Below are positions 7,432-35,360 of a DNA stretch of 36,182 bases, piece after piece. The notes under the pieces were generated by a model. The model worked only from the letters and a program-made list of their open reading frames with translations, did not search any database and was not told where the DNA came from. Location: contig JADGHQ010000022.1 of assembly GCA_019683805.1 (NCBI GenBank), positions 1 to 36,182 on the forward strand. The letters run 5' to 3'. Origin of the DNA: Thermoleophilaceae bacterium (GTDB taxonomy: Bacteria > Actinomycetota > Thermoleophilia > Solirubrobacterales > Thermoleophilaceae). Numbering within the stretch: the first letter of the stretch is position 1; every line of letters starts with the position of its first letter. The translations under genes were made by a program, and so were the position numbers.

Positions 7432-7778
7432 TCGGCACGCCGGGCAAGCCGTTCGTGCGTATCGTCTGGGCAGCCAACCCCTTCCGCGGCGACAAGGTCG
7501 AGGAGTGGGGCCGCCGCCTGGCCGAGCTCGCGCTCGACTACGGCGCCAGCGCCTGGGCGTGGGTGCGCTCGCAGGAGGACCCGCTCACCTTCGAGCAGTA
7601 CGCGGTCTTCCCCTCGAAGCTCGACTTCGAGCGGTACTGGTACTCGGAGGAGGTCTCGGCCCTCCGCACCGAGGCGCAGGGCTGGTTCCACGTCCCGGTG
7701 CTGCCGGAGTGGTTCACCCTGGTCGACGCCGGCGAGGCGCTCACCCTCGAGGAGCTGCAGGGGCCCGCGAAGCGGTAG
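7428..7778 (+). CDS. Small uncharacterised protein translationally coupled to ccr
   Basis: The protein has 116 residues; its ATG overlaps the ccr stop (ATGA), with GGAGGTG at 7417-7423 as ribosome binding site, so co-expression with Ccr is likely. I do not recognise the family. The pattern (VRIVWAANPFRGDKVEEW, a helix, SAWAWVRSQEDPLTFEQYAVFPS, then DFERYWYSEEV and GWFHVPVLPEWF) looks like an alpha/beta ferredoxin-like barrel of the dimeric monooxygenase/ABM shape, but no catalytic residues can be assigned. It is rich in Trp, Tyr and Phe and has no signal peptide or membrane segment. A role beside Ccr is inferred only from the overlap. Confidence 0.75.
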   Translation: MIGTPGKPFVRIVWAANPFRGDKVEEWGRRLAELALDYGASAWAWVRSQEDPLTFEQYAVFPSKLDFERYWYSEEVSALRTEAQGWFHVPVLPEWFTLVDAGEALTLEELQGPAKR

Positions 7779-7798
7779 GGCGCGCGCCGCGCCCTACC
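7774..7798. terminator. Bidirectional hairpin between convergent genes
   Basis: An 11-bp perfect inverted repeat with a three-base loop (arm GTAGGGCGCG at 7775-7784). It contains the stop codon of the + strand gene (7776-7778) and that of clpS (7794-7796). There is no U-tract on either side. Confidence 0.6.
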
Positions 7799-8087
7799 CC
7801 TGCTCGAGCGGCGCCATCGTCAGTCCGGCGTCGTTGAGCTGCTCCCAGTACAGCTCGGCCGGCTCGCGCGGGCCCGACCAGACGATCGCCTGCCCGGTGT
7901 TGTGGATCCGGTTGGCGATCTCCATCCCCTGCTCGTAGGTGACCCCCGGGATCACGCGCGCCAGCGCGCGCGCGACGCCCTCGAAGGTGTTGTGATCGTC
8001 GTTGAGCACGATCACGCGCCAGTTGCCGCCGAGGCCCTCCCCCGGCCCGGCCTGGCGAGGTCGCTCGATCGTCTGCGTCGCACTCAT
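7794..8087 (-). CDS. clpS: ATP-dependent Clp protease adaptor ClpS
   Basis: The protein has 97 residues. ClpS binds proteins with N-degron residues and delivers them to the ClpA/ClpC unfoldase for degradation by ClpP. The family core is clear: WRVIVLNDDHNTFEGVARAL with the NDDxNTF signature, then GVTYEQGMEIANRIHNTGQAIV and a C-terminal strand and helix ending AGLTMAPLEQG. The first 25 residues form the usual flexible N-terminal arm. Its ATG overlaps the stop of the preceding hydrolase gene (ATGA), so the two form a coupled pair. No clpA or clpC lies nearby. The start at 8087 gives a standard length. Confidence 0.93.
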   Translation of the reverse strand: MSATQTIERPRQAGPGEGLGGNWRVIVLNDDHNTFEGVARALARVIPGVTYEQGMEIANRIHNTGQAIVWSGPREPAELYWEQLNDAGLTMAPLEQG

Positions 8088-8929
8088 CTCGCCGAAGTCG
8101 TCTCCTCCTGCTTCTTCCAGTAACGCGCGAGACCGGCGTAGAGCTGATCCGGCGGAGCGGCCTGGAAGAACCTGACCGCGGTGTCGGGGTCGGCCGACTC
8201 GAGGATCTCCTCCTCCACCTCGCGCACGAACTCGTCCCTGCCCGCCGCGCGCGCGAGCTCGCCCCAGTTGCGGAGCCGCTCGCGCACCTGGAGGATCTGC
8301 TCCTCCACGTCGCCCACGTAGCCGAAGTGCGTGAGCCGGAGAGCGGCGGGACGCCAGCGCTCGACCGCGTCGAGCGAGAGCTGCCAGCGCTCGAGGTCGA
8401 TGTCGGGCGGCGGCGTCGGCGCGATCGCGTAGCCGGACGGCGGGATGATCACGCCGCACACGTCCCCCACGAACGCCTCGCCCGTCTCCTCGTGCAGATA
8501 GGCGACGTGGTGCCAGGCGTGGCCCGGCGTGTACTCCACGCGGAAGCCCTCCACCCGCTCGCCGCCCGAGAGCGCGCGGATGCTCGCCTCGGGCACGGGG
8601 AGCACCTCGCCCCACAGCCGCTCCATCTCGCCGCCGTAGAGCCGCGTGGCGCTGGCGAGCAGCTTCGAGGGATCGGCCAGGTGGGGCGCGCCCCGCTCGT
8701 GGACGTAGACCCGCAGGTGCGGGAAGCGGCGCACCAGCGCGCCGGTCGCGCCCGCGTGGTCGAGGTGGATGTGCGTGAGCAGGATCGCCCGCGGCTCGGC
8801 GTCGCCGAGCCCCTCGAGCAGGGTCTCGAGCGTGCTCTCCGGCCCCGGGTCCACTATCAGGCCGTCGACCTCGTGCGCCGCGATCACCCGGTCGCGGCCG
8901 AGGTGCATCACGTCGATCTCGCGGATCAT
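8084..8929 (-). CDS. Metallo-beta-lactamase-fold hydrolase
   Basis: The protein has 281 residues. The zinc-binding H-x-H-x-D-H signature is present in THIHLDHAGATG near residue 52, followed by the downstream His in YTPGHAWHHVAYL and the bridging Asp in FVGDVCGV, so both metal sites appear intact. The C-terminal third is helical. The family includes glyoxalase II, lactonases and other thioester or ester hydrolases, and the substrate cannot be read from the sequence. Its position between acyl-CoA genes makes a CoA thioester conceivable but unproven. A longer start at 8944 (five more residues) is possible; 8929 was chosen because a TATGGT element at 8940-8945 would then serve as promoter. Confidence 0.85.
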   Translation of the reverse strand: MIREIDVMHLGRDRVIAAHEVDGLIVDPGPESTLETLLEGLGDAEPRAILLTHIHLDHAGATGALVRRFPHLRVYVHERGAPHLADPSKLLASATRLYGGEMERLWGEVLPVPEASIRALSGGERVEGFRVEYTPGHAWHHVAYLHEETGEAFVGDVCGVIIPPSGYAIAPTPPPDIDLERWQLSLDAVERWRPAALRLTHFGYVGDVEEQILQVRERLRNWGELARAAGRDEFVREVEEEILESADPDTAVRFFQAAPPDQLYAGLARYWKKQEETTSAR

Positions 8930-11929: not shown

Positions 11930-12343
11930 TCAGAGCTCGTCGGCCTCGATCGCGTCCTCGGTGATCGCGATTGCGACCGCGTGCGCGCGGGTGCGGGCGC
12001 CGAGCTTGCGCATGATGTTCTTGACGTGGGTGCGGACCGTGTGCGGGCTCACGTGCAGCCGCTCGGCGATCTCGTCCGTCGAGATGCCGCGCGCAAGCTC
12101 GGCGAGGACGCGCCGCTCGCGGCCGGAGAGCAGGGCGGAGCGGAGCCGCTTCGGGGCGGCGCCGGCGGGGCGCTCGGTCAGCGCGTCTCCGGCCTGCGCA
12201 CGCCGCGGCGCGATCGCCCGGGCGCGCCCATCCCCCAGCACCTCGCGAGCCTCTGCCGGGCCGGCCGGGGCTGCCCGCAGCAGCCCGTCGATGTGCGACG
12301 GCCCGCGGTCGGCATCGAGCTGTCTGGATGTGATCTCAACCAA
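11930..12343 (-). CDS. HTH-only LuxR-family transcriptional regulator
   Basis: The protein has 137 residues. The C-terminal half (about 68-130) is a LuxR/GerE DNA-binding domain: LSGRERRVLAELARGISTDEIAERL, then HVSPHTVRTHVKNIMRKLGARTRAHAV. The first 65 residues are Arg/Ala-rich and show no receiver or ligand-binding domain, so this is not a standard response regulator. The start is uncertain: the TTG at 12343 overlaps the stop of the CHAP gene upstream by eight bases, and no ATG occurs early. It is probably co-transcribed with the wall hydrolase and may regulate flagellar or wall genes, but no target is visible. Confidence 0.8.
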   Translation of the reverse strand: MVEITSRQLDADRGPSHIDGLLRAAPAGPAEAREVLGDGRARAIAPRRAQAGDALTERPAGAAPKRLRSALLSGRERRVLAELARGISTDEIAERLHVSPHTVRTHVKNIMRKLGARTRAHAVAIAITEDAIEADEL

Positions 12344-12953
12344 GGCGCACGAAGCCTATTGCTTCGGTCGGTCGGTGAGACCTGCGCGCGACCCGGTCGG
12401 ACGAGTTCCCCTCGATCGTCTGGAGCGTGCCATCCGGGCTTACGGCCTCGACCAGCCCCACGTGCTCGTGGAACACGACCAGGTCGCCCGGCTGCGGCTG
12501 CAGCCCGCTCCCCGGCGCGAAGGCGCGGCCCGACCGCTGCGCCCAGGCCCAGAGGGCGTCCACCGACCCGAAGCCCTGCCCCTGCTCGCCGAGCGGCACG
12601 CCCGCCTGGCGCGCCACCCACGAGACGAAGTACGCGCACCACGGGCCGGGGCCGGGAGCGCCCGCGGTGGCGGCGCGGTACTGCGCGATCCGCGGCGAGT
12701 CGTTCGAGCCGGGCGGCTGCTCGGCCACGCCCAGCTCGCCCTGCGCGATCGCCACCATGCGCGCGCCCACCCCGCCGCCGGGCGCGATCGCCCCCAGGGC
12801 GGCGCTCGCCTTCGCGGCGACCGCGCCCTGGAGCGCGCCCGCGAACGAGCCGGGCGCCGTGCTCGGCGATGCTGGGACGGGTGCGGGTGGAAGCGACGAC
12901 GCGAGCGCGGACTGGATCTCCGCGACGCGCGCGAGCGCCGACTCGATGCTCAC
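12336..12953 (-). CDS. CHAP-type peptidoglycan hydrolase with flagellar-style N-terminus
   Basis: The protein has 205 residues. The C-terminal part (about 62-205) looks like a CHAP amidase/endopeptidase: catalytic Cys106 in GPGPWCAYFVSWVARQAG, His164 in VVFHEHVGLVEAV and the acidic EGN at 181-183. There is no signal peptide. Instead the N-terminus MSIESALARVAEIQSAL resembles that of the lytic transglycosylase at 30146-30745 (MSVTSAVSRMAELEAL). This suggests a shared export or docking signal, perhaps for the flagellar secretion system; that is inference. The gene lies beside flagellin, and a weak sigma-28-like site ends seven bases before its GTG. Its likely role is local opening of peptidoglycan for the flagellar rod. 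Confidence 0.78.
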   Translation of the reverse strand: MSIESALARVAEIQSALASSLPPAPVPASPSTAPGSFAGALQGAVAAKASAALGAIAPGGGVGARMVAIAQGELGVAEQPPGSNDSPRIAQYRAATAGAPGPGPWCAYFVSWVARQAGVPLGEQGQGFGSVDALWAWAQRSGRAFAPGSGLQPQPGDLVVFHEHVGLVEAVSPDGTLQTIEGNSSDRVARRSHRPTEAIGFVRLG

Positions 12954-13079: not shown

Positions 13080-13109
13080 GAGACGGGCGGCCCGAAGGCC
13101 GCCCGTCTC
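13080..13109 (-). terminator. Hairpin terminator downstream of flagellin
   Basis: A perfect 13-bp stem (arm GAGACGGGCGGCC) closes a CGAA loop, about 85 bases past the flagellin stop. On the minus strand it is followed by a pyrimidine run containing CCTTTCTCTCTCC rather than a pure U-tract. The rest of the 239-base gap to the CHAP gene holds only the weak promoter described separately. Confidence 0.75.
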
Positions 13110-13192: not shown

Positions 13193-13993
13193 TTAGCGGA
13201 GCAGTGAGAGAACCGACTGCGGCTCCGTGTTGGCCTGCGCGAGCATGCTCGTGCCGGCCTGCTGGAGGATCTGCAGCTTGGAGAACTCGACCATCGCCGC
13301 GGCCATGTCGACGTCGCGGATGCGGCTCTCCGACGCCGTCAGGTTCTCCTGATACGTCGAGAGGTTGTTCAGCGTGTGCTCGAGACGGTTCTGAACCGCG
13401 CCGAACGTGGCACGCTGGGCCGACACGGCGTTGATCGCCGCATCGATCTCCGAGATGTCGGCGGAGCCGCCCAGCGCGAACACCGACGCCCCGACCACGC
13501 TGCCGAGGCTGATCGTCGACACCGAGATCGAGTCCCCGTCGTTCGCGCCCACCTGGAACGTGATCGACGTGGCAGCGGACAGCAGGTTGATCCCGTTGAA
13601 GGTCGAGCTCGAGCCGATCCGCTCGATCTCCGAGCCGAGCTGGTTGACCTCCGACTGGATCGCAGAGCGGTCCTCGGCCGACAGCGTGCCGTTGTTGTAC
13701 TGCACGGCGAGCTCACGGACGCGCTGCAGCATCGCGTGGACCTCGTTCAGCGCGCCCTCCGCGGTCTGCACGAGCGAGACCGCGTCCTGGGCGTTGCGGC
13801 TGGCCTGGGAGAGACCGCCGATCTGCCCGCGGAGCTTCTCGCTGATCGCGAGGCCGGCGGCGTCGTCAGCCGCGCGGTTGATCCGGTAGCCCGACGACAG
13901 CTGCTCCATCACCTTGGAGATCCTGCCGCTCGTGCCCGCGAGCTGACGCTGGGCGTTGAACGCCTCGATGTTGTGCTGGATGCGAAGGGACAT
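13193..13993 (-). CDS. fliC: Flagellin
   Basis: The protein has 266 residues and polymerises into the flagellar filament after export by the flagellar secretion system. The D0/D1 parts are conserved at both ends: MSLRIQHNIEAFNAQRQL, ISKVMEQLSSGYRINRAADDAAGLAISEKLR and C-terminal SRIRDVDMAAAMVEFSKLQILQQAGTSMLAQAN ending QSVLSLLR. The variable centre is very short (about residues 130-190), so the filament would be thin-domained like Bacillus Hag. That centre is rich in Ser and Thr, giving possible O-glycosylation sites for the enzymes at 601-6091. The start is fixed by AAGGAGG seven bases upstream. It stands alone, with its own sigma-28 promoter and terminator. Flagellin export normally needs FliS and FliW, neither of which is encoded here. 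Confidence 0.97.
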   Translation of the reverse strand: MSLRIQHNIEAFNAQRQLAGTSGRISKVMEQLSSGYRINRAADDAAGLAISEKLRGQIGGLSQASRNAQDAVSLVQTAEGALNEVHAMLQRVRELAVQYNNGTLSAEDRSAIQSEVNQLGSEIERIGSSSTFNGINLLSAATSITFQVGANDGDSISVSTISLGSVVGASVFALGGSADISEIDAAINAVSAQRATFGAVQNRLEHTLNNLSTYQENLTASESRIRDVDMAAAMVEFSKLQILQQAGTSMLAQANTEPQSVLSLLR

Positions 13994-18518: not shown

Positions 18519-20581
18519 GCCTCGACCACCCCGATCGTCTCCACTCGAATACCAGGCACGATCTCGTTGTAGGAGCAGACCGCGAGCTGCGGCATCGCCT
18601 GCTCGCAGAGCCGGCGCAGGTGGCGCCGCACGCGAGCCGAGCACAGCAACACCGGTCTACTGCCCTGCGATATCGCCCTGTCGAACTGCTCCTTGAGCTC
18701 CTGGACGAGGCCTTGCGCGCGCTCCGGCTCCATGACGAGGTACTCCCCGTCCGGGGTCTGCGCGATCGACTCGGACACCTCCTGCTCGACCGCGGGGTCG
18801 AGCGCGATCGCGGCGAGCCGCTTCTGCGCGTCGAGGTGGGGCGCGGTGATGGTGCGGCCCAGCGCCTGGCGCGCGTACTCGGCGAGCAGCGGGGGATCGC
18901 GCGTGACGCGAGCCTTGTCCGCGATCGCCTCGATGATCGTGCCGAGGTCGCGGATCGGCACGCCCTCGGACAGGAGCGCCTGCAGCACGCGCTGGATCTC
19001 CCCGACCGTGAGCACGTCGGGCACGACCTCCTCGACCACCGCCTCGTTGACCTCCTTGAGCCGGTCGAGCAGCTGGCGGGTCTCCTGACGGGTGAGCAGC
19101 TCGGCGGCGTGGGCGCGGATCGTCTCAGTGAGGTGGGTGACGATCACCGACTCGCGGTCCACAACCGTGTAGCCGAGCGCCTCCGCCTCGGCGCGCGCGG
19201 AGTCGGGGATCCAGGTCGCCGGCAGGCCGAAGGCGGGCTCGGTCGTCGGGATGCCCGAGAGCTGGCCGACGGCGTCGCCCGGGTCCATCGCGAGCTGGTG
19301 TCCCGCTAGCACCTGCCCGACCGCGACCTCCGCGCCGCGCACCTTGATCGCGTACTCGTGCGAGTCGAGGCCGATCTCGTCGTGGATGCGCACGGGCGGG
19401 ATCACCATGCCGAGCTCCGAGGCGATCTGGCGCCGGATCGCGCGCACGCGCGAGAGCAGCGAGCCGCCCGCGCTCTCGTCCACGAGCGGGACGAGGCCGA
19501 AGCCGATGGCGAGCTCGAGCGGGTCGATCTGGAGCGCCTCGAGCGCGGCGTCCTTCGACTCGCCGGACTCGGCGGGCGCCGCGAGCGCCGCGCGCGCGGC
19601 GTCGGCCGCGCGCGCCTCGTCGGCCTCGGCGCGCCTGCGCAGGAGCCACCACAGCCCGAGGAAGCCGCAGCCCATCACGAGGAAGGGGATCTTCGGCAGG
19701 CCCGGCACGACCGCGAGCAGGAGCATCGCCGCGCCCGCGACGAGCGGGGCCTTCACCTGGCTCGTTATCTGCCCGGCGATGTCGTTGCCGAGGTCGTTCT
19801 CCGACGCGGAGCGCGTGACGATGATGCCGGTGGCGACGGAGATCAGGAGCGCCGGGATCTGCGCGGTGAGGCCGTCGCCGACCGTCAGCAGCGAGAAGTG
19901 CCGGCCCGCCTCCCCGAGCGACATCTTGTGCTGGAGCACGCCGATCACGATGCCGCCGAGCAGGTTGATCGTCGTGATCAGCAGGCCGGCCATCGCGTCT
20001 CCCTTCACGAACTTCGAGGCGCCGTCCATCGCGCCGTAGAAGTCCGCCTCGCGCGCGATCTCGCGGCGGCGGGCCCGCGCCTCCTCGTCGGTGATCTGGC
20101 CCGCGTTGAGGTCGGCGTCGATCGCCATCTGCTTGCCGGGCATCGCGTCGAGCGTGAAGCGCGCCGCCACCTCGGCCACGCGGCCCGCGCCGTTGGTGAT
20201 CACGACGAACTGGATCACCACGAGGATCAGGAACACGACCAGGCCGACGACCACGTTGCCGCCCACCACGAAGCTCCCGAACGCCTTCACGACGTGGCCC
20301 GCGTCGCCGTGCAGCAGCACGAGGCGCGTGACGGACACGTTGATCGCGAGCCGGAAGAGCGTGGTCAGGAGCAGCACGCTCGGGAACGAGGAGAAGTCGA
20401 GCGGCCGCGGCATGTAGAGCGTGGTGACCACGATCGCGAGCGCCCCGGAGATGTTCAGCGCGATGCAGAGGTCGACGAGCGCCGGCGGCAGCGGGATGAT
20501 CATCATCACCACGACGAGCACGACCGCGCCCGCGGCCATCAGGTCGGTCTGCCGCGCGAGGCGCTGCGCCCAGGCCGGCAT
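18515..20581 (-). CDS. flhA: Flagellar export gate protein FlhA
   Basis: The protein has 688 residues and forms the nonameric inner-membrane export gate. Residues 20-320 hold about eight membrane helices with the conserved RLAINVSVTRLVLLHGDAGHVVKAFG and the cytoplasmic loop TLDAMPGKQMAIDADLNAGQITDEEARARR (the FHIPEP region). Residues 345-688 are the cytosolic ring domain that receives substrates and chaperones (FGLVPLVD, LGMVIPPVRIHDE, TVVDRESVIVTHL). Length and motifs are standard. The ATG overlaps the flhB stop by one base, and flhF overlaps its end, so the genes are coupled. Confidence 0.97.
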   Translation of the reverse strand: MPAWAQRLARQTDLMAAGAVVLVVVMMIIPLPPALVDLCIALNISGALAIVVTTLYMPRPLDFSSFPSVLLLTTLFRLAINVSVTRLVLLHGDAGHVVKAFGSFVVGGNVVVGLVVFLILVVIQFVVITNGAGRVAEVAARFTLDAMPGKQMAIDADLNAGQITDEEARARRREIAREADFYGAMDGASKFVKGDAMAGLLITTINLLGGIVIGVLQHKMSLGEAGRHFSLLTVGDGLTAQIPALLISVATGIIVTRSASENDLGNDIAGQITSQVKAPLVAGAAMLLLAVVPGLPKIPFLVMGCGFLGLWWLLRRRAEADEARAADAARAALAAPAESGESKDAALEALQIDPLELAIGFGLVPLVDESAGGSLLSRVRAIRRQIASELGMVIPPVRIHDEIGLDSHEYAIKVRGAEVAVGQVLAGHQLAMDPGDAVGQLSGIPTTEPAFGLPATWIPDSARAEAEALGYTVVDRESVIVTHLTETIRAHAAELLTRQETRQLLDRLKEVNEAVVEEVVPDVLTVGEIQRVLQALLSEGVPIRDLGTIIEAIADKARVTRDPPLLAEYARQALGRTITAPHLDAQKRLAAIALDPAVEQEVSESIAQTPDGEYLVMEPERAQGLVQELKEQFDRAISQGSRPVLLCSARVRRHLRRLCEQAMPQLAVCSYNEIVPGIRVETIGVVEA

Positions 20582-21636
20582 CAGACGGCCCTCCTACCAG
20601 CGACGCGGTAGACGAACGCGAGCAGCTGCGCGACCGCCTGGTAGAGCTCCTCGGGGATCATCTGGCCGACCTCGACGGACGCGTGGAGCGCGCGCGCGAG
20701 CGGCGGGTCCTCGATCACGGGCACGCCGTGCTCCTCGGCGATGCGCCGGATCCGGAAGGCGATCAGGTCGGGCCCCTTCGCCACGACCTCGGGCGCGGGC
20801 TTGGTTCCGTCGTACCTGAGCGCGACCGCGAAGTGCGTCGGGTTGGTGACGACGACGTCCGCCTCGGGGACCGCCGCCATCATGCGCGCGCGCGCCTGCT
20901 CCATCTGGCGGCGGCGGAGGGCGCCGCGCACCTCCGGCGGGAGCTGCTGCGACTTCGCCTCCTCCTTGACCTCGTGCCTGTCCATCCGCAGGCTCTTCTC
21001 GTGCTGGCGGCGCTGCCAGAAGTAGTCGGCGATCGCGATCACGAGATAGGCGGCCGCGGCGCGCTTGGCGATCTCGAAGACGCGGCTCGTGAGCTCGGAG
21101 AGGAGCTCCTGCGGCGGCATGCCGACCACGCCCCCGAGCTCTGACATGTGCGGCAGCACCGCGGTGGCTGCGATCGCGCCCACGACCGCGACCTTCACGA
21201 CGCTCTTGCCGCCCTCGAACGCGCCGCGCGGGCTGAGCAGCGTCTTGAGGCCGTTCCTGGGGTCGATCCGCTTGGGGTCGGGCTTCAGGAGCGACAGGTT
21301 GAGGCGCGGACGGACCTGGTACCAGTTGATCCCGACGCCGGCGAGGGCGCACACCGCGGCGATCGGCGCGACCGACGCGCCCACCGCCGAGAAGGCCCCG
21401 CCGAGCACGGCGCCGACGCCCTCGCGGCTCACCACGTCGGGATTCGCGATCAGCAGCAGGCCGCTCGTCATGCTCTCGCGCAGGCTGTTCAGGACCTTCG
21501 GGCCGAAGGCCGACAGCGCCAGGAGCCCAGCGATCGTCACCACCGCCCCGTTGAGGTCCGCCGAGCGGGCGACGTTGCCCTTGCGCTTGGCCTCGTCCCT
21601 GCGCTTTGGAGTCGGCTTCTCGGTCTTCTCCGCCAT
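20581..21636 (-). CDS. flhB: Flagellar export switch protein FlhB
   Basis: The protein has 351 residues. It has the N-terminal EKTEKPTPKRRDEAKRKGNVARS, four membrane helices between about 30 and 210, and the cytoplasmic autocleavage motif NPTH near residue 264 (VVTNPTHFAVALRYD). FlhB cleaves itself there and switches export from rod/hook to filament substrates together with FliK. The start ATG lies two bases after the fliR stop and the downstream flhA overlaps its stop. All features are normal for the family. Confidence 0.97.
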   Translation of the reverse strand: MAEKTEKPTPKRRDEAKRKGNVARSADLNGAVVTIAGLLALSAFGPKVLNSLRESMTSGLLLIANPDVVSREGVGAVLGGAFSAVGASVAPIAAVCALAGVGINWYQVRPRLNLSLLKPDPKRIDPRNGLKTLLSPRGAFEGGKSVVKVAVVGAIAATAVLPHMSELGGVVGMPPQELLSELTSRVFEIAKRAAAAYLVIAIADYFWQRRQHEKSLRMDRHEVKEEAKSQQLPPEVRGALRRRQMEQARARMMAAVPEADVVVTNPTHFAVALRYDGTKPAPEVVAKGPDLIAFRIRRIAEEHGVPVIEDPPLARALHASVEVGQMIPEELYQAVAQLLAFVYRVAGRRAV

Positions 21637-27022: not shown

Positions 27023-27892
27023 TCAGCGCTTCATGTTCACCAGGTCCTGGAGCATCTCGTCCGCGGCCGAGATGATCCGGGCGTTCGCCTGGAAGCCGCG
27101 CTGAGCGCTGATCATCGTGGTGAACTCCTGGGCGAGGTCGACGTTCGACATCTCGAGCGTGCCCGAGGTGGTCTGGCCGAACTCGGCGCTCGGGGTGCCG
27201 ATCTGCTCGCCGCCGGACGCCGTCGTGGCGCGCCAGTGCGACGCCGCCGCGCGCTCCAGGCCGTTCGGGTTCGCGAACTTGGCGAGCGAGATGTAGCCAG
27301 CGATAACCGGGCTGGTGCCGCCCGCCGGGATGTAGCTGACCGAGCCGTCGGGGCCGATCGAGATGCTCGTCGCGCCCTGCGGGATCTGGATGAAGATGTC
27401 GTTGCCCGGGGGCGCGGGCGTCGCGGTGGGGCTCACCGTGTCGCGCCCGACGACGTAGTAGCCGTCTGCCGTCACCAGGAAGCCCTGGTCGTTGCGGCTG
27501 AAGTTGCCCGCGCGCGTGTACTCGATGGTGGTGCCGGCCGGCACGTTGAACGGCGGGGCGCCGGGCGGCGTCGCGGCCGCGATGCGGAACCAGCCGTCGC
27601 CCTGCACCGCCACGTCGAGCGGCGAGCCGGTCGCCTGCAGCGCGCCCGACCCGATCACCGAGTCGATCGAGCCGAGCTGCACGCCCAGGCCGACCTGGGC
27701 CGGGTTCGAGCCGCCGAGCGTGCCGGACTGGCCCGACCCGCCCCTCTGGAGCTGGGCAAGCGAGTCCTTGAAGGTGGTGCGGCTCGCCTTGTAGCCGACC
27801 GTGTTGACGTTGGCGATGTCGTTGGCCGCCACGTCGAGCATGATCTGGTGGGCCTTGAGGCCGCTGATCGCGGCGAACATGCTCCGCATCAT
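27023..27892 (-). CDS. flgE: Short FlgE/FlgG-type flagellar hook protein
   Basis: The protein has 289 residues. The N-terminus MMRSMFAAISGLKAHQIMLDVAANDIANVNTVGYKASR and the C-terminus SNVDLAQEFTTMISAQRGFQANARIISAADEMLQDLVNMKR in outline are the paired helices of the rod/hook family; the middle holds the beta domain with DVAVQGDGWFRI and YTRAGNFSRNDQGFLVTADGYYVVG. Its position after flgD and the TIGR02530-type gene and before flbD is that of the hook protein FlgE. FlgE is usually 400 residues or more, so this would be a minimal hook; the length is nearer to FlgG. GGGAG lies ten bases before the ATG pair. Confidence 0.82.
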   Translation of the reverse strand: MMRSMFAAISGLKAHQIMLDVAANDIANVNTVGYKASRTTFKDSLAQLQRGGSGQSGTLGGSNPAQVGLGVQLGSIDSVIGSGALQATGSPLDVAVQGDGWFRIAAATPPGAPPFNVPAGTTIEYTRAGNFSRNDQGFLVTADGYYVVGRDTVSPTATPAPPGNDIFIQIPQGATSISIGPDGSVSYIPAGGTSPVIAGYISLAKFANPNGLERAAASHWRATTASGGEQIGTPSAEFGQTTSGTLEMSNVDLAQEFTTMISAQRGFQANARIISAADEMLQDLVNMKR

Positions 27893-28000: not shown

Positions 28001-28402
28001 TCAGGCGATCACCGCCGAGTCGATGTTCGTGAACACGTGCTCGCGCATGTGCTCCCTGTCCACCGCCGTGATGACGGTGCGGTTGCGGACGGACACGACG
28101 AACGCGGTGCCGTCCACGAAGACCACGGACTCGCGCGACCCCTTCGAGGCGGCGCGCTCCACGCCGGCGGTGAGGCGCTCGAGCGTCCCGTGTCCGAGGT
28201 CGATGCCGCGACGCTCGATGCGCTGGACGGCGTGGCCCGAGAACTCGAGCTTCCCGGCCTGCTGCCGCAGCAGCTCGTCGAACGACGGCCCGGCGAGCGG
28301 ACGGGCGCGGCGCGGAGCCTCGGTCGCCCCTGCCCGGCCCGTCCGTTCCGCGGGCGCGAGCCCGGGCGGCACGAGCGCCGGGTTGTGGCTGAAGCCGCTC
28401 AT
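28001..28402 (-). CDS. TIGR02530-type flagellar operon protein
   Basis: The protein has 133 residues. A disordered N-terminus is followed by a conserved domain of about 85 residues: KLEFSGHAVQRIERRGIDL, ESVVFVDGTAFVVSVRNRTVITAVDREH and the closing FTNIDSAVIA, which is characteristic of the family located between flgD and flgE in Gram-positive operons. Its role is unproven, possibly in hook assembly. The ATG overlaps the flgD stop (ATGA) with GGAGGT just upstream. Confidence 0.85.
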   Translation of the reverse strand: MSGFSHNPALVPPGLAPAERTGRAGATEAPRRARPLAGPSFDELLRQQAGKLEFSGHAVQRIERRGIDLGHGTLERLTAGVERAASKGSRESVVFVDGTAFVVSVRNRTVITAVDREHMREHVFTNIDSAVIA

Positions 28403-28818
28403 CGGACCTCCATGACGTCCGCGGGATCGACCTCGGAGTCGCCCACGATCAGCGTGACCTTGCCCTTGTCGAGCTCGGCCTTCTCCACCACACCGGAGCG
28501 CGGCTCGCCGTCGTCGCCGAGCCAGCTCACCGTCTTGCCGACGAGCGCGAGGCTCTCCTCCTGCTGCGCCGTGCTCCGGAGCTGCTCCGCGGTGACCGCG
28601 AGGTTTGTGAGCTGCTCGAGGATCGAGAACTGGGTCATCTGAGCCATCGACTGCGCCGGGTCGCTCCCGGACTGGCTCAGCGGGTCCATGTTCTGGAGGG
28701 AGGCGACCATCAGCTTCAGGAAGTCGTCCTTCCCGAGCGTGCTGTTGTCGGTCTTCTGGGTAGTCGAGCTCGTCCCGGCGGCCGCCGTGCTCGAGCCGAT
28801 GGCGTCTGTCGTCGACAT
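28399..28818 (-). CDS. flgD: Flagellar hook-capping protein FlgD
   Basis: The protein has 139 residues. FlgD caps the growing hook and is then discarded. The Ser/Thr-rich N-terminus leads to the signature LGKDDFLKLMVASLQNMDPL and MAQMTQFSILEQLTNL, followed by a short beta part (ALVGKTVSWLGDDGEPRSGVVEKAELDKGKVTLIVGDSEV). The protein is shorter than the roughly 220 residues of enterobacterial FlgD, as usual in Gram-positive forms. AGGA precedes the ATG. Confidence 0.94.
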   Translation of the reverse strand: MSTTDAIGSSTAAAGTSSTTQKTDNSTLGKDDFLKLMVASLQNMDPLSQSGSDPAQSMAQMTQFSILEQLTNLAVTAEQLRSTAQQEESLALVGKTVSWLGDDGEPRSGVVEKAELDKGKVTLIVGDSEVDPADVMEVR

Positions 28819-28836: not shown

Positions 28837-30144
28837 TCAGGCGAGCACGTCGATCAGCACGCCGTTCGGCAGCGCGATCTTCGTGTCGGTCGAGGTCTCC
28901 TCCAGGGGCTCGGCGTGCGAGCCCTCGCTCGTGCCGTGCGCCCCGCGCCGGCTGCCCGCGCCCTCGTTCTCGAACGCGCCGGGTCGGCGGTCGTCGCCGC
29001 CCGCCGTGCCGATGTCGAGCTGGACGAGGTCGATGCCCTGGCCCTCGAGCGAGCGGCGCAGCTCGTCGCCCGCCCTCTCGAGCGCCTGGGCGGCGTCGTG
29101 GTGGTCGGCCACGACGTGCGCGACGAGCCCCGCCTGCGTGTGGCGCAGGTGGATCTCGACGCCGCCGAGCTCGCGCGGGCTGAGCGCGAGGCGGGCGTGC
29201 GTGACGCCGCGGCTCGCGGACAGGCGGATCGCGGCCTCCACGCTCTCGGCGGCGCGGCTGAGCGGCACGGGCGTGGCGGGCCGCGGGTCAACGACGGCGC
29301 GCGACTCGTGCTGCGGGGCGAGCGTCGCCGCGGCGGGCGCGGACGCCTGCTGCTGCGCGGCCTGCCCGGCCGCGGCGGGCCGTGGCGGCCGGGGCTCGCC
29401 CATCCCCGCCGGCCGGTCGGCGGCGCGCTCCTTCGGCTGCGCGGCGACGCCGGGCTCCGGGGCGGGCGTCTCGGGACGCCGGGCCGGCTGTACGCCTCTC
29501 GGCTCCGCCCGGTCCGCCGCAGCGGCGGCCTGAGCGCCGCCGTCCTGCGGGCGCACGGCGGGCGCGGAAGCCTGAGCCTCGCCCGCCGGGGCCGGGCCGG
29601 CCGCCGTCGCACTCGAAGCATCCGTGGCGTCGACGGGCGCGCCGGCCTGGGTGACCGCAGGCGCGGTCTGCGCCTGGGGGGCCGCGCCACCCTGCACAGC
29701 GGCCGGCAGGGCCGGCTCGAGCGCCGTCTGCGGCTGGGACGAGGTCGGCCGCGCGCCCTCCTCGCCCACGCCCGCGGCGAGCGCAGCGAGCGGGTCGAGG
29801 CTCGACCCGAGCGCGGCCGCGTCCCCCGCGGCGGGCTGCTCGACGGCGCCCACGGGCTGCTGCGGCTGCGCGGCGGCGGCTCGATCGGCGGGCGCCGCGC
29901 CGTCCGCGCGCTGCGATGAGTCGCCGTCGGCGCTCGTGCCGCGCTCCTTGCGCGGCTTCGCCTCCGGGCTCTTCGCTGCGCCCTTGCTGTCCTGGCCTTC
30001 CGCTCTGGCGGTCCGGGCCTGATGGTCCTCGAGGAGGGTCCCGAAGAGCCCCGGCGGGGCTTTCGCCTCCCTCCTCGTCTCGGCGCTCGGGCTCGGCGTT
30101 CCTGCCGGCCGCGCCGCGTCCGCGACGAGAGTCCGTTCTGTCAT
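28837..30144 (-). CDS. fliK: Flagellar hook-length control protein FliK
   Basis: The protein has 435 residues. About 300 residues of Ala/Pro/Gln-rich low complexity precede the conserved C-terminal Flg_hook domain: LALSPRELGGVEIHLRHTQAGLVAHVVAD and ALERAGDELRRSLEGQGIDLVQLDIG. FliK is exported, measures the hook and flips the FlhB switch. The start is one base after the transglycosylase stop (TGAGATG). The long low-complexity ruler next to a very short hook protein is consistent with hook length being set separately from subunit size. Confidence 0.9.
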   Translation of the reverse strand: MTERTLVADAARPAGTPSPSAETRREAKAPPGLFGTLLEDHQARTARAEGQDSKGAAKSPEAKPRKERGTSADGDSSQRADGAAPADRAAAAQPQQPVGAVEQPAAGDAAALGSSLDPLAALAAGVGEEGARPTSSQPQTALEPALPAAVQGGAAPQAQTAPAVTQAGAPVDATDASSATAAGPAPAGEAQASAPAVRPQDGGAQAAAAADRAEPRGVQPARRPETPAPEPGVAAQPKERAADRPAGMGEPRPPRPAAAGQAAQQQASAPAAATLAPQHESRAVVDPRPATPVPLSRAAESVEAAIRLSASRGVTHARLALSPRELGGVEIHLRHTQAGLVAHVVADHHDAAQALERAGDELRRSLEGQGIDLVQLDIGTAGGDDRRPGAFENEGAGSRRGAHGTSEGSHAEPLEETSTDTKIALPNGVLIDVLA

Positions 30145-30145
30145 C

Positions 30146-30745
30146 TCACGTGGTCCGGTAGGGGGTTGACTGGGAGGTCGGGGTCGTGGCCCGCGCGGCG
30201 TTGCGGTACTGCTCCGCGTAGGCCAGGACGCGCTGGACGTACGCCTGCGTCTCGGCGTACGGCGGCACGCCGCCGTAGCGCTCCACGGCGCCCGGGCCGG
30301 CGTTGTAGGCCGCCAGCGCCTTGCGCACGTCGCCGCCGAAGCGGTCGAGCTGCATGCGCAGGTAGCGCGCCCCGCCGTCGATCGACTGGGCGGGGTCGTG
30401 CAGGTCCTTCACCCCGAGCGAGGCGGCGGTGGCGGGCATGAGCTGGGTCAGGCCCTGCGCCCCCGCCGGGCTGCCGGCGTCGGGGTCGAAGCTCGACTCG
30501 GCGCGGATCAGGCCGCGCAGCAGCGCGGGGTCCACCCGGTACCTGGCGGCGGCCGCGTCGATCAGCGACGCGTAGGGCGTGTCGGCTCCGCCGGCGGCGC
30601 CGGCGTCCGCTGCGGCCTGCGCGGCGCTCGCGGCGGCGAGCTGCCTGTCGAAGCCGCCCGCGCTCGCCACGGGGGTCGGTCCGCCGAGCCGGGCGGCGAG
30701 CGCCTCGAGCTCTGCCATGCGCGACACGGCGGAGGTGACGCTCAC
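30146..30745 (-). CDS. Flagellar lytic transglycosylase (SLT domain)
   Basis: The protein has 199 residues. Residues 60-185 form a soluble lytic transglycosylase domain: catalytic Glu in LLRGLIRAESSFDPDAGSPAGAQGLTQLMP, then AAYNAGPGAVERYGGVPPYAETQAYVQRVLAY in outline. It cleaves glycan strands so the rod can cross the wall, a role played by FlgJ elsewhere. There is no signal peptide; the N-terminus MSVTSAVSRMAELEAL resembles that of the CHAP hydrolase at 12336-12953. The GTG start overlaps the fliJ stop (GTGA); a longer start lacks support. Confidence 0.9.
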   Translation of the reverse strand: MSVTSAVSRMAELEALAARLGGPTPVASAGGFDRQLAAASAAQAAADAGAAGGADTPYASLIDAAAARYRVDPALLRGLIRAESSFDPDAGSPAGAQGLTQLMPATAASLGVKDLHDPAQSIDGGARYLRMQLDRFGGDVRKALAAYNAGPGAVERYGGVPPYAETQAYVQRVLAYAEQYRNAARATTPTSQSTPYRTT

Positions 30746-31197
30746 GACGAGTGCCCCCTGCGGCAGTGGATCGACAGCGCCATCTCGTCGAGCGCCGCGC
30801 ACTCGCGGCGGGCGACCCGAAGCTCGTGATCTGCGCGGCGGCGCTCCTCGAGGCGCTCCAGCACCTGGCGCTCGCGCGCGGCGCTTGCGAGCGCGCGCCG
30901 GCGCGCCTGCACCTCGGCGTCGCGGCGGTCGAGGTCGAGCGCCGCGGCCTCCCGCTCGCGCTCGGTGCGCTCGAGGTACATCTGCCGCGCCACGAGCTCG
31001 CCCGCGGTGACAGCCGCCCCGGCGAGCTCCCGCCGCCTGCGACGGGCGCGCTCGACGGTCGCGCTCGCGGCGCGCAGCCGCGCCTCGCCCTGCGAGCGGT
31101 GGGAGAGCGACGCGGCGAGCTGCTCGCGCGCCAGCTCCTCGGTGCGCTCGCGCAGGGCGCGTACGCGCTCGAGGGAGAACTTGAAGGGACGGTCCAC
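30742..31197 (-). CDS. fliJ: Flagellar export chaperone/stalk protein FliJ
   Basis: The protein has 151 residues, almost wholly coiled coil and Arg/Glu-rich. The N-terminus FKFSLERVRALRERTEELAREQLAASL is typical of FliJ, the stalk of the FliH-FliI ATPase. FliH and FliI are not encoded here, although fliI usually precedes fliJ. The GTG start lacks a Shine-Dalgarno sequence; a TCCGACTA element ending eight bases upstream resembles a sigma-28 -10 box but has a poor -35 partner. Confidence 0.85.
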   Translation of the reverse strand: MDRPFKFSLERVRALRERTEELAREQLAASLSHRSQGEARLRAASATVERARRRRRELAGAAVTAGELVARQMYLERTEREREAAALDLDRRDAEVQARRRALASAARERQVLERLEERRRADHELRVARRECAALDEMALSIHCRRGHSS

Positions 31198-32574: not shown

Positions 32575-35292
32575 CTACTTGCGCGACTTGTGCGTCTTAC
32601 GCGCCTTGCGCGTCTTCCTGCTCTTGGTGCTCTTGCTGCCCTTGCAGGAGACCGAGAGCGTGACGCTCTTGCTCACGCGCTTGCCGTTGTGCGCGAGGAT
32701 CGTCTCCTGCGCGCGCCGACTGCTCTTGCACAGGTCGGCCTTCGGCGAGAGCAAGCCCTTCGAGCCCCCGTTGAGCGTGAGCGTGAAGCGGCTCAGCGGC
32801 ACATCGGGGAGCCCGCTGAAGGTGCTCCGCAGGCCGGACCTGGTGAGCGTGTTGGTGCCGTCAACCTGAATCGACAGCTGGCCGTTCAGGAAGATCGACA
32901 GCCCGGGCAGACCCTGCCCGCCGGGGCCCTCGACGAGGTACACCGGCCCCGCCAGCTTGTCCTTCAGCAGCGGGGTGACCGCCTCTGCCGTGCCGACCTG
33001 GGCGTCGGCCGGGCAGCTCGCCGCCGCGAGCTGGTCGCGGGTGCAGAGACCCACGCCGGCCGGCGGCTGGACGCCGAGCGACGAGGGCAGCGTCAGCGAC
33101 ACGCTGCGCTGGTTGGCCTGGCCGGAGCGCTGCGTGAGCGTCACCTTGAGGCCGGGATGCCGGCCCGGCTTCGTGTTGGACCGGCCGCCGGTCAGCGACG
33201 CCGACAGCTTCGGCGAGAACGCGAGGTCGGCGCACCCGCCGATCTGGAACCGGGTCGAGACCGGCTGGCCGCTCACCGCGCCCGTGACCTGGCGCGCCGT
33301 GCACGAGGTCCCGTTGAGCATGAACCCGGCCCGGTCGATCGTCACGTTGACGAAGCGGAGCCGCAGCGGGATCCCCTGGAGGATCGTCGGCAGCGGATCC
33401 GACTTGACCGAGAGGTGGGCGTCGTGGCGGTCGACGAAGACCGCGGACCGGACGACCACCGTGCCCAGGTTGAACGGGCCGGCCACCGCGGGCACCACGA
33501 TCGAGAGCCCGAGCGGCGCCCCGTCGTACGGGCCGGTCAGGTAGACCTTGCCGCCCAGCGTGTACGGGTTCGAGCCCGGGCCGGCCCCGATCGTGACCTT
33601 GCCCACGAGGCTCTCGTCGCCGCAGGTGCCGGCGGCCGCCTGGGCCTCGGGGCACAGCGGCACCGACGCCAGCCTGCCGGTCAGGCCCGGCGGCAGGTTC
33701 ACGTCGATCGAGGTGATCGGCGACCCGCCGTCGGCGCGCCGCGCCGTCAGCGTGAACGGGCTGCTCGCCGCGGCGAGCGGGGTCACCACCCCGGCGGTGA
33801 ACGACGGGGCCGCGCCGCCGTCGCAGCCCGAGTCGACCGTGAAGCTGCTCGTCGGGGTCGCGAGCTGACCCGCGTACGAGGTGAGCTGCGTGGTCGTCGC
33901 CTTCGTGCCGCACGTCTCAGGCAGCGCGAGCGGAGCGCGCGAGCCGCCCTTGAAGTGCAGCTTCAGGTGCGTGAACGGCAGCAGCGGGTTGTTGTCGAAC
34001 GTGGCCGTGAGCTGGCCGGTGCTCGGGTCGGCGTCGAGCTTGCCCGGCAGCTTGAGGATCATGCCGGGGCCACGCGCCACCAGGTAGATGGCCAGCGTCG
34101 ACCCGAACGGGTTGTCGTTCTGGGCCGCGAGGTAGATCGGGCCCGTGAGCGGCTCCGTCAGGAGCGGGGTGTCGATCTCGACGGAGCCGATCTTCGACGC
34201 CTGCGGACAGGTCGGGTCGGCGTTCGAGCCGAGCGCGATCTGCGCCTGCGAGCAGGCGGCGAGCCCGTCGGCCGCGGACGGCGACACCGAGACGCCCTCG
34301 GGCAGCGTCACCACGGCCTTCTGCAGCGGCGGGGTGGCGAGGCTGTCGGGGTTCTCGTTCTGCGGGATCGCGAGGTCGACGCTGAGGCCGCTCGGGGCGC
34401 CCGCCTGCGTGAGGTCGGGCTGGACGTCGATTGTCGGCCGGAACGTCTGCCTGTCGCAGCCCGTCAGCGTCTGCGGGTCGGACGTGTAGGTGAGCCACGT
34501 GTCGGGGTCCTGCCACGAGCGCACCCGCAGCTTCGTGACGCCCTGCACGCCGCAGACCGACGGGAGCGTCATGAACGGCTTCCGCGGCGCGTCCGTGGAC
34601 GCCCCGAAGCTGAACGAGCTCGGGTCGTACCGATCCGGGTCGTGCGCGGGGTCGGCCGGCACGCCCCAGAAGGTGAGCGTCGAGCCCGTGAGCGCGACCA
34701 GCGAGGAGACCTTCGAGATCGTCGTGACGAGCGAGTACTGGTCGACGCCGAAGGTCCCGTCCGTCTTCACGGCCGCCCGGATGTGCACGGGCGCGATGCC
34801 GAGCGCCTTGAAGGCGAAGTCGGCCGCGACCCCGTCCGGCGGGACCATGTTGTAGACGGGCCGCTTGTCGTTGATCACGAACGGCCCGTTGCGGAGCTCG
34901 AGCACGGTGACGCCCACCTGGCTCGAGATCGGGCAGCGCGCGTTCTGAAGCTGCTGGCCGGTGCACTTGGGCGTCGCCTGGGGGTTCCCGATCATGCCCG
35001 GCGGGAGCGTCACCTCGATGTCGCGGACGTTCCCGTCAGCCTCCTCGAAGCCGTTCGGCGACTTCGTGTTGAACTGGAAGCTGGTGGTTGCCGTGAACGG
35101 GTGCGCGCCCGCCTGGTTCACGGGGTCGCCGTTGGCGTCGAGGGCCTCCGCCCTGAAGGTCCCCGGCTTGACGCCGAAGTCCGCACGCGCGGGCCTCGCG
35201 GCCACCGCGGCGAACAGCAGCGCCGCCAGCACGCAGGCGCCGATCAGGAGCGCCCGCGTGAGGGACCGCCGGCTCCTCACCGTCGTGGTCAT
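32575..35292 (-). CDS. Secreted four-repeat surface protein with basic C-terminus
   Basis: The protein has 905 residues. A signal peptide (basic RSRRSLTR, hydrophobic core ALLIGACVLAALLFAAVA, probable cleavage after ARPARA) precedes about four repeats of 200-240 residues. Each carries an LPPG- or LPxG/S-type strand, a Cys, 8-16 residues, a second Cys (often CP) and a VG: near residues 108, 345, 545 and 749. The Cys pairs could form disulphides. The last 20 residues are almost all Lys, Arg, Ser and Thr. Proteins of this style are known as large families in Solirubrobacterales; function unknown, presumably cell-surface. The start was chosen for GGAAGGG six bases upstream; a frame extending to 35346 lacks a signal-peptide context. 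Confidence 0.85.
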   Translation of the reverse strand: MTTTVRSRRSLTRALLIGACVLAALLFAAVAARPARADFGVKPGTFRAEALDANGDPVNQAGAHPFTATTSFQFNTKSPNGFEEADGNVRDIEVTLPPGMIGNPQATPKCTGQQLQNARCPISSQVGVTVLELRNGPFVINDKRPVYNMVPPDGVAADFAFKALGIAPVHIRAAVKTDGTFGVDQYSLVTTISKVSSLVALTGSTLTFWGVPADPAHDPDRYDPSSFSFGASTDAPRKPFMTLPSVCGVQGVTKLRVRSWQDPDTWLTYTSDPQTLTGCDRQTFRPTIDVQPDLTQAGAPSGLSVDLAIPQNENPDSLATPPLQKAVVTLPEGVSVSPSAADGLAACSQAQIALGSNADPTCPQASKIGSVEIDTPLLTEPLTGPIYLAAQNDNPFGSTLAIYLVARGPGMILKLPGKLDADPSTGQLTATFDNNPLLPFTHLKLHFKGGSRAPLALPETCGTKATTTQLTSYAGQLATPTSSFTVDSGCDGGAAPSFTAGVVTPLAAASSPFTLTARRADGGSPITSIDVNLPPGLTGRLASVPLCPEAQAAAGTCGDESLVGKVTIGAGPGSNPYTLGGKVYLTGPYDGAPLGLSIVVPAVAGPFNLGTVVVRSAVFVDRHDAHLSVKSDPLPTILQGIPLRLRFVNVTIDRAGFMLNGTSCTARQVTGAVSGQPVSTRFQIGGCADLAFSPKLSASLTGGRSNTKPGRHPGLKVTLTQRSGQANQRSVSLTLPSSLGVQPPAGVGLCTRDQLAAASCPADAQVGTAEAVTPLLKDKLAGPVYLVEGPGGQGLPGLSIFLNGQLSIQVDGTNTLTRSGLRSTFSGLPDVPLSRFTLTLNGGSKGLLSPKADLCKSSRRAQETILAHNGKRVSKSVTLSVSCKGSKSTKSRKTRKARKTHKSRK

Positions 35293-35320
35293 CCTCATCC
35301 CTTCCGTAGTCGTGGTCGGG

Positions 35321-35360
35321 CCGGTGGCGATGAGAGTCGTGCTCATGACCGCCTCACCGG
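35321..35360 (-). terminator. Nested hairpin at the junction of the two secreted-protein genes
   Basis: Outer arms CCGGTG/CACCGG (35321-35326, 35355-35360) enclose ATGAG/CTCAT (35330-35334, 35342-35346). It overlaps the stop of the upstream gene and could end or attenuate its transcript. Confidence 0.35.

Follow-up and report, generated by a model that had tools for sequence, protein, structure and literature searches.

Two wall hydrolases encoded in the flagellar gene cluster of an actinobacterium carry the same N-terminal tag in front of unrelated catalytic domains, and sequence comparisons make it probable that this tag is a portable early type III export signal that delivers the enzymes through the flagellar channel. 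The cluster lies on the minus strand of a 36,182-nt stretch of DNA from a Thermoleophilaceae bacterium (contig JADGHQ010000022.1, positions 1-36,182, assembly GCA_019683805.1; the window). One enzyme has a CHAP domain and the other is an SLT lytic transglycosylase. In both, the tag comprises an amphipathic helix with Arg at position 9 (Arg9), an Ala/Pro linker, and an F-x3-L element. An earlier note on the window had written the last element as (S/G)F-x2-(A/Q)L; a shared element does follow the linker, but F-x3-L describes it better than that pattern.

A common N-terminal tag precedes unrelated catalytic domains

Met1, Arg9, and the Phe and Leu of F-x3-L are invariant across both families, and Arg9 shows no exception among the 43 tags counted or in the A4 and A7 alignments. 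The window pair shares seven identities over residues 1-17, and its BLOSUM62 score of 34 over residues 2-17 was reached by 14 of 100,000 shuffles. By itself the pair is suggestive; as judged by profile comparison, the similarity is decisive once orthologs are added. A CHAP-tag profile (11 sequences) and an SLT-tag profile (8 sequences) aligned end to end in hhalign (probability 97%, E 1.9e-11, score 50), while 200 column-shuffled controls gave a maximum score of 15.1. A profile built from relatives only, excluding the own genome, ranked the CHAP site first (29.3) and the SLT site second (22.6) among 10,574 Arg-centred windows of the six-frame open reading frames (ORFs) in the window; the third scored 11.8. 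CHAP-only and SLT-only profiles each put the other family's tag third. Across the own genome, the CHAP protein (E 1e-12) and the SLT protein (E 4e-12) were the only ones retrieved by a 45-residue tag profile on its own; the next match had E 0.055.

Chance or compositional similarity of Ala-rich N-termini could be suspected, given that both linkers are rich in Ala and Pro and that the genome has 73% GC. The profile comparisons refute this idea and leave it with practically no probability: shuffles of the same composition stayed at or below 15 against 50, the Arg and Phe positions are invariant, and the two sites take the top two ranks. FliE was considered as an ancestor of the tag and rejected; FliE of these genomes has an FxxxPhi-like element without the Arg9 helix.

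By Pfam, the two catalytic domains are of separate families, CHAP (50.1 bits, cut-off 26; E 4e-13) and SLT (102 bits, cut-off 21.3; E 2e-29). Cys106 and His164 of the CHAP protein are invariant across 12 orthologs, as is the catalytic Glu83 of the SLT protein in its orthologs. A stop codon just upstream limits how far the CHAP start could be moved, and the SLT start overlaps the fliJ stop within GTGA. A PDB sequence search with the CHAP protein gave no match, and Foldseek returned hydrolases of the NlpC/P60 and CHAP types, none with an E value under 0.001. In the AlphaFold2 model the CHAP tag forms a helix at residues 3-20 (predicted local distance difference test, pLDDT, about 83), followed by a disordered linker and a second, low-confidence helix from F37; the N-terminus of the tag is probably helical. 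The SLT model was of low confidence (mean pLDDT 67) and was not used.

By hydropathy, neither protein has the hydrophobic core of a signal peptide: the maximum over 12 residues is 1.03 (CHAP) and 0.72 (SLT), against 2.6 in a Sec-type CHAP control. A related CHAP protein (L016) has a Sec-like N-terminus, and an SLT paralog in the own genome has a membrane-spanning segment upstream. Both tagged genes lie in flagellar blocks, in the orders fliJ-SLT-fliK and flagellin-CHAP. Four claims of the earlier note, namely a shared N-terminal segment, unrelated catalytic domains, no signal peptide, and a flagellar location, are thus borne out by the profile alignment and ranking, the Pfam assignments, the hydropathy values, and the gene order.

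The tag recurs with flagella

The earlier note had proposed a search for the N-terminal profile in relatives, with non-recurrence as a refutation. The segment clearly recurs. Among 41 genomes (the own genome and relatives), 11 encode FlhA and all 11 have a tagged CHAP protein; a twelfth tagged genome is 72% complete. The co-occurrence of tagged CHAP with FlhA has a Fisher p of 4e-9. The closest CHAP orthologs from named organisms come from Thermoleophilia/Solirubrobacterales, for example Conexibacter, Patulibacter, Solirubrobacter, and Svornostia. The tag profile was passed by 44 of 55 CHAP orthologs from named genomes, at least five more are tagged by eye (L193, L206, L217, L218, L219), and several of the remainder are truncated or masked. 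Of these genomes, 48 were tested: flhA is present in 44, and each of the remaining four has a flagellin gene next to the CHAP gene. The genome of Solirubrobacter sp. CPCC 204708 (L214) has both flhA and tagged CHAP; a strain of this name has been described as non-motile (PMC10722151).

We extended the search to a phylum sample of 296 genomes, 52 of them FlhA-positive. All 11 genomes matching a hidden Markov model of the tag at E<=1.3e-4 are FlhA-positive. Two weaker matches were judged false: an unrelated long ORF in G192, a genome without FlhA (E 2e-4), and a weak hit in G207 (E 0.005). By our count, a clear tag is present in 36 of the 52 FlhA-positive genomes and a weak one in about four more.

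One tag heads many enzymes

At least six kinds of enzyme that cut the wall begin with the tag: CHAP, SLT, NlpC/P60, SLT+NlpC, NlpC+SLT, GH73-like, and VanY. Outside the order, it is found on NlpC/P60 proteins (G222, G233, G211, G315, G118, G125), SLT+NlpC fusions (G149, G243, G043), CHAP proteins (G117, G232, G324), and GH73-like proteins (G117, G324, G211, G315, G118), the last so named because their GH73 matches fall below the Pfam cut-off (E 2e-4, 0.003). Within the family, genome G013 has a VanY-type peptidase as a third tagged protein. Its gene (L077, G013:C9:113493) encodes a full tag, MSIESAVLRVAELQ...GGFAGAL, and lies on another contig than the genes for tagged CHAP and SLT.

In FlhA-positive genomes without a profile match, SLT proteins or NlpC+SLT fusions (the fusions in G292, G198, G101, G124, G079) mostly start with the same helix, R-I-x2-I, likewise mostly with F-x3-L downstream. 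Aligned with the CHAP-tag profile, these N-termini gave E 8e-10. A matrix made from order-level tags only, applied to 17,306 windows at these loci, placed such N-termini in 14 of the top 16 positions; this ranking is the fairer test, because the R-I-x2-I batch had been chosen by eye before alignment. The gene for the tagged enzyme usually has fliJ on one side and fliK on the other, at about 5-7 kb from fliE, whereas the usual slot of tagged CHAP follows flagellin. Tagged enzymes of several types thus occupy one slot, with different catalytic domains behind the same tag.

The tag resembles an early type III export signal

In Salmonella, early substrates combine two elements, a non-polar signal at the N-terminus and an FxxxPhi gate-recognition motif, which must be at least 19 residues apart; in FlgD these are 2-SIAV-5 and 36-FLTLL-40, with that spacing (PMC8983047). 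FxxxPhi docks in a hydrophobic pocket of FlhB-C, where F45 of FlgB is recognised by A286, P287, A341, and L344 (PMC9307174). All four pocket residues are kept in the FlhB of the window (A281, P282, A336, L339). Residues 3, 6, 7, and 10 of the tag are non-polar, and more than 25 residues separate residue 5 from F32 or F37. No CHAP or SLT ortholog lacks FxxxPhi, which falls within residues 31-45 in each of the eight SLT orthologs listed. In the own genome, all eight tested proteins of this class, CHAP, SLT, FlgD, FliK, FlgE, TIGR02530, FlgG, and FlgJ, have one FxxxPhi each at residues 32-41 (33-41 in the last six). The motif is absent from the first 80 residues of the soluble controls FliN, FliM, flagellin, LuxR, MeaB, FlhF, and a glycosyltransferase. 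The tag is thus like the FlgD/FlgE/FlgB signal in having FxxxPhi near residues 30-50, a non-polar N-terminus before it, and adequate spacing; it differs in adding a conserved Arg9 helix and in sitting on enzymes instead of structural subunits. Some early subunits have a C-terminal targeting signal (PMC10936197); the C-terminus of the tagged enzymes is the catalytic domain.

Several observations weigh against an export signal. FxxxPhi alone is a weak motif that also occurs in integral membrane proteins of the window, and FliJ has one at residue 5. About 12 of the 52 FlhA-positive genomes lack a recognisable tag. The CHAP gene has a late-class neighbour, flagellin, though a terminator stands between them. 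Finally, Arg9 lies outside the known Salmonella signal and is missing from FlgD, FliK, and FlgE here, so that the tag must be more than, or other than, a generic export signal. This pattern suggests an extra function for Arg9, which might be docking or binding to a hydrolase-specific receptor.

The tag could accordingly be read as a docking module that is not, or not only, an export signal, and that anchors the exported enzyme to a rod, rod-cap, or MS-ring component, with the helix face and Arg9 making the contact; cutting would thereby be restricted to the rod tip. Every tag counted has Arg9, yet the genome's other early substrates lack it; FlgJ is what localises SltF in Rhodobacter (PMC7277832); and a free enzyme let go at the rod tip would need holding. 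Docking leaves the exit from the cytoplasm without a signal peptide unexplained, however, and the FxxxPhi element fits export directly; we consider this reading unlikely.

Less probable still is another exit route (Tat, ESX/WXG-type, holin-like, or lysis), with the tag acting as a helix that couples or sequesters the enzyme in the cytoplasm, for instance at FliJ, FliH, or FlhA. The overlap of the SLT gene with fliJ and the conserved slot beside fliJ would suit such coupling, and other secretion systems use small helical N-termini. Yet no twin-arginine or WXG motif was seen in the N-termini of the tagged enzymes, and the strict co-occurrence with FlhA and flagellin and the placement of FxxxPhi favour the flagellar route.

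The earlier note had suggested an export or rod-docking tag. Its export half is well supported by the recurrence, the flagellar co-occurrence, the match to the two-part signal, and the conserved FlhB pocket, all of which are consistent with early type III export. In such a mechanism, the enzyme would be made in the cytoplasm without a Sec signal, F-x3-L would dock it in the hydrophobic pocket of FlhB-C, and the non-polar N-terminal helix would engage and open the gate. The small enzyme would then pass unfolded through the channel and refold at the growing rod tip. There, as family membership predicts, SLT would cut glycan strands and CHAP peptide bonds, so that the thick wall would be opened only along the rod path. 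The Arg9 helix might further be an address confined to hydrolases, separate from the general export signal and read by a partner at the gate, the rod tip, or FlgJ; we hold this somewhat less probable than its opposite. If it is true, most flagellated Actinomycetota would run a dedicated modular delivery line for wall cutters, in which one tag could carry whatever wall-cutting domain is placed behind it, with release at the rod tip and nowhere else.

Relation to FlgJ and other flagellar wall enzymes

The own genome encodes FlgJ as a separate, 103-residue, single-domain rod-binding protein on G000:C25, with a weak match to PF10135 and placed by gene context. Pfam gave no match to this rod-binding domain in the CHAP or SLT protein. 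The idea, put forward in the earlier note, that the FlgJ job is split between two enzymes stands insofar as cutting falls to stand-alone enzymes; with the FlgJ scaffold a separate protein, the job is split three ways, not two. Near rod genes on the same contig (L273), an FlhB-matching stretch (38%), possibly an FlhX-like homolog of the FlhB C-terminus, and a second flagellin, 71% identical to that in the window, lie at 1227-1553 and 7699-8499.

As with FlgJ of Salmonella and relatives, a wall hydrolase would be exported by the flagellar type III system for rod passage, and the GH73-like domain behind the tag in some genomes recalls bifunctional FlgJ, which is rod cap and glucosaminidase. Salmonella FlgJ carries its enzyme on the rod-binding domain, whereas the enzymes here carry only a 40-50 residue tag and are of several catalytic types. 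A stand-alone SLT enzyme with a single-domain FlgJ is also found in Rhodobacter sphaeroides (SltF) and Borrelia burgdorferi (BB0259), and the SLT domain matches the NCBIfam model of BB0259, NF047373, with E 1.7e-32 and 113 bits, below the cut-off of 234. SltF and BB0259 are exported by Sec signal sequences (PMC7277832, PMC8517470); the proteins here have the tag and, by hydropathy, no Sec signal. CwlQ of Bacillus subtilis is likewise, going by the title of Sanchez et al. 2021 (cited in PMC12153297), a flagellum-related wall enzyme in a Gram-positive bacterium; it is reportedly needed for swarming, not for flagellar assembly.

Type III exported wall cutting by bifunctional FlgJ is known already, as are Sec-exported stand-alone SLT enzymes with single-domain FlgJ in Rhodobacter and Borrelia. 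In the open-access literature, subscription journals being outside the search, neither the tag nor type III export of wall enzymes in actinobacteria turned up, and nor did a portable tag carried by different types of hydrolase across a phylum. How the rod passes the thick wall of Actinomycetota is an open question according to a 2023 survey of actinobacterial flagella (PMC10746217). If a shared tag routes stand-alone wall enzymes through the flagellar channel, much of the phylum would have a concrete answer that can be put to the test. Being compact, the tag may serve to probe the early export signal, and it may mark flagellar wall enzymes of any catalytic type, including those not otherwise recognisable as flagellar, such as VanY in G013 or a CHAP protein encoded away from the main cluster. 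A further prediction is that Arg9 is a new recognition element, one without a known counterpart in Salmonella.

Gene layout of the window

Pfam identifies FlhA, FlhB, FliP, FliR, FliN, FliM, MotA, MotB, an FlgE-type protein, FlgD, FliK, FliJ, and flagellin in the window. Both tagged ORFs lie where the earlier note placed them; coordinates are collected in Table 1.

Table 1. Tagged enzymes and related flagellar features of the window
Feature	Position	Strand	Remarks	Basis
CHAP-domain hydrolase gene	12336..12953	-	First tagged enzyme; 205 aa; GTG start at 12953	
CHAP tag helix, residues 1-20 (MSIESALARVAEIQSALASS)	12894..12953	-	Arg9 invariant	Alignments, AlphaFold2
CHAP FxxxPhi, F37-A-G-A-L41	12831..12845	-	Gate-recognition-like; in 12/12 CHAP orthologs	
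CHAP catalytic domain, residues 102-183	12405..12650	-		Pfam
SLT lytic transglycosylase gene	30146..30745	-	Second tagged enzyme; 199 aa; GTG start at 30745	
SLT tag helix, residues 1-20 (MSVTSAVSRMAELEALAARL)	30686..30745	-		Alignments
SLT FxxxPhi, F32-D-R-Q-L36	30638..30652	-	Gate-recognition-like	
SLT catalytic domain, residues 61-159	30269..30565	-		Pfam
flhB	20581..21636	-	Proposed FxxxPhi receptor; pocket A281, P282, A336, L339	Alignment to solved FlhB structures
fliJ	30742..31197	-	Directly upstream of SLT gene	Pfam FliJ
fliK	28837..30144	-	Directly downstream of SLT gene; early substrate; FxxxPhi at F34	Pfam
flgD	28399..28818	-	Early substrate; FxxxPhi at F33	Pfam
TIGR02530 flagellar protein	28001..28402	-	FxxxPhi at F41	NCBIfam
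flgE-type hook/rod protein	27023..27892	-	FxxxPhi at F41	Pfam
Flagellin	13193..13993	-	Directly upstream of CHAP gene; order kept in relatives	Pfam, synteny

Beside fliM, a 923-residue ORF (32575-35346, minus strand) has a hydrophobic, signal-like N-terminus and no NCBIfam match. Just upstream of 13993 on the minus strand, flagellin is preceded by a sigma-28 flagellar promoter-like sequence, TAAAGGTC-N11-GTCGATCA, of which no clear copy was found before the CHAP gene. Between the two genes (13082-13107, minus strand) lies a strong, perfect, G+C-rich hairpin, GACGGGCGGCC-TTCG-GGCCGCCCGTC, ahead of a T-rich stretch; with this terminator in place, flagellin and the CHAP gene are probably separate transcripts. 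Directly after the CHAP gene, a short LuxR-type (GerE) protein is encoded (11930-12343, minus strand), which may be a flagellar regulator. The order flagellin-CHAP-LuxR is repeated in several relatives (L122, L123, L186, L187, L189, L193, L198).
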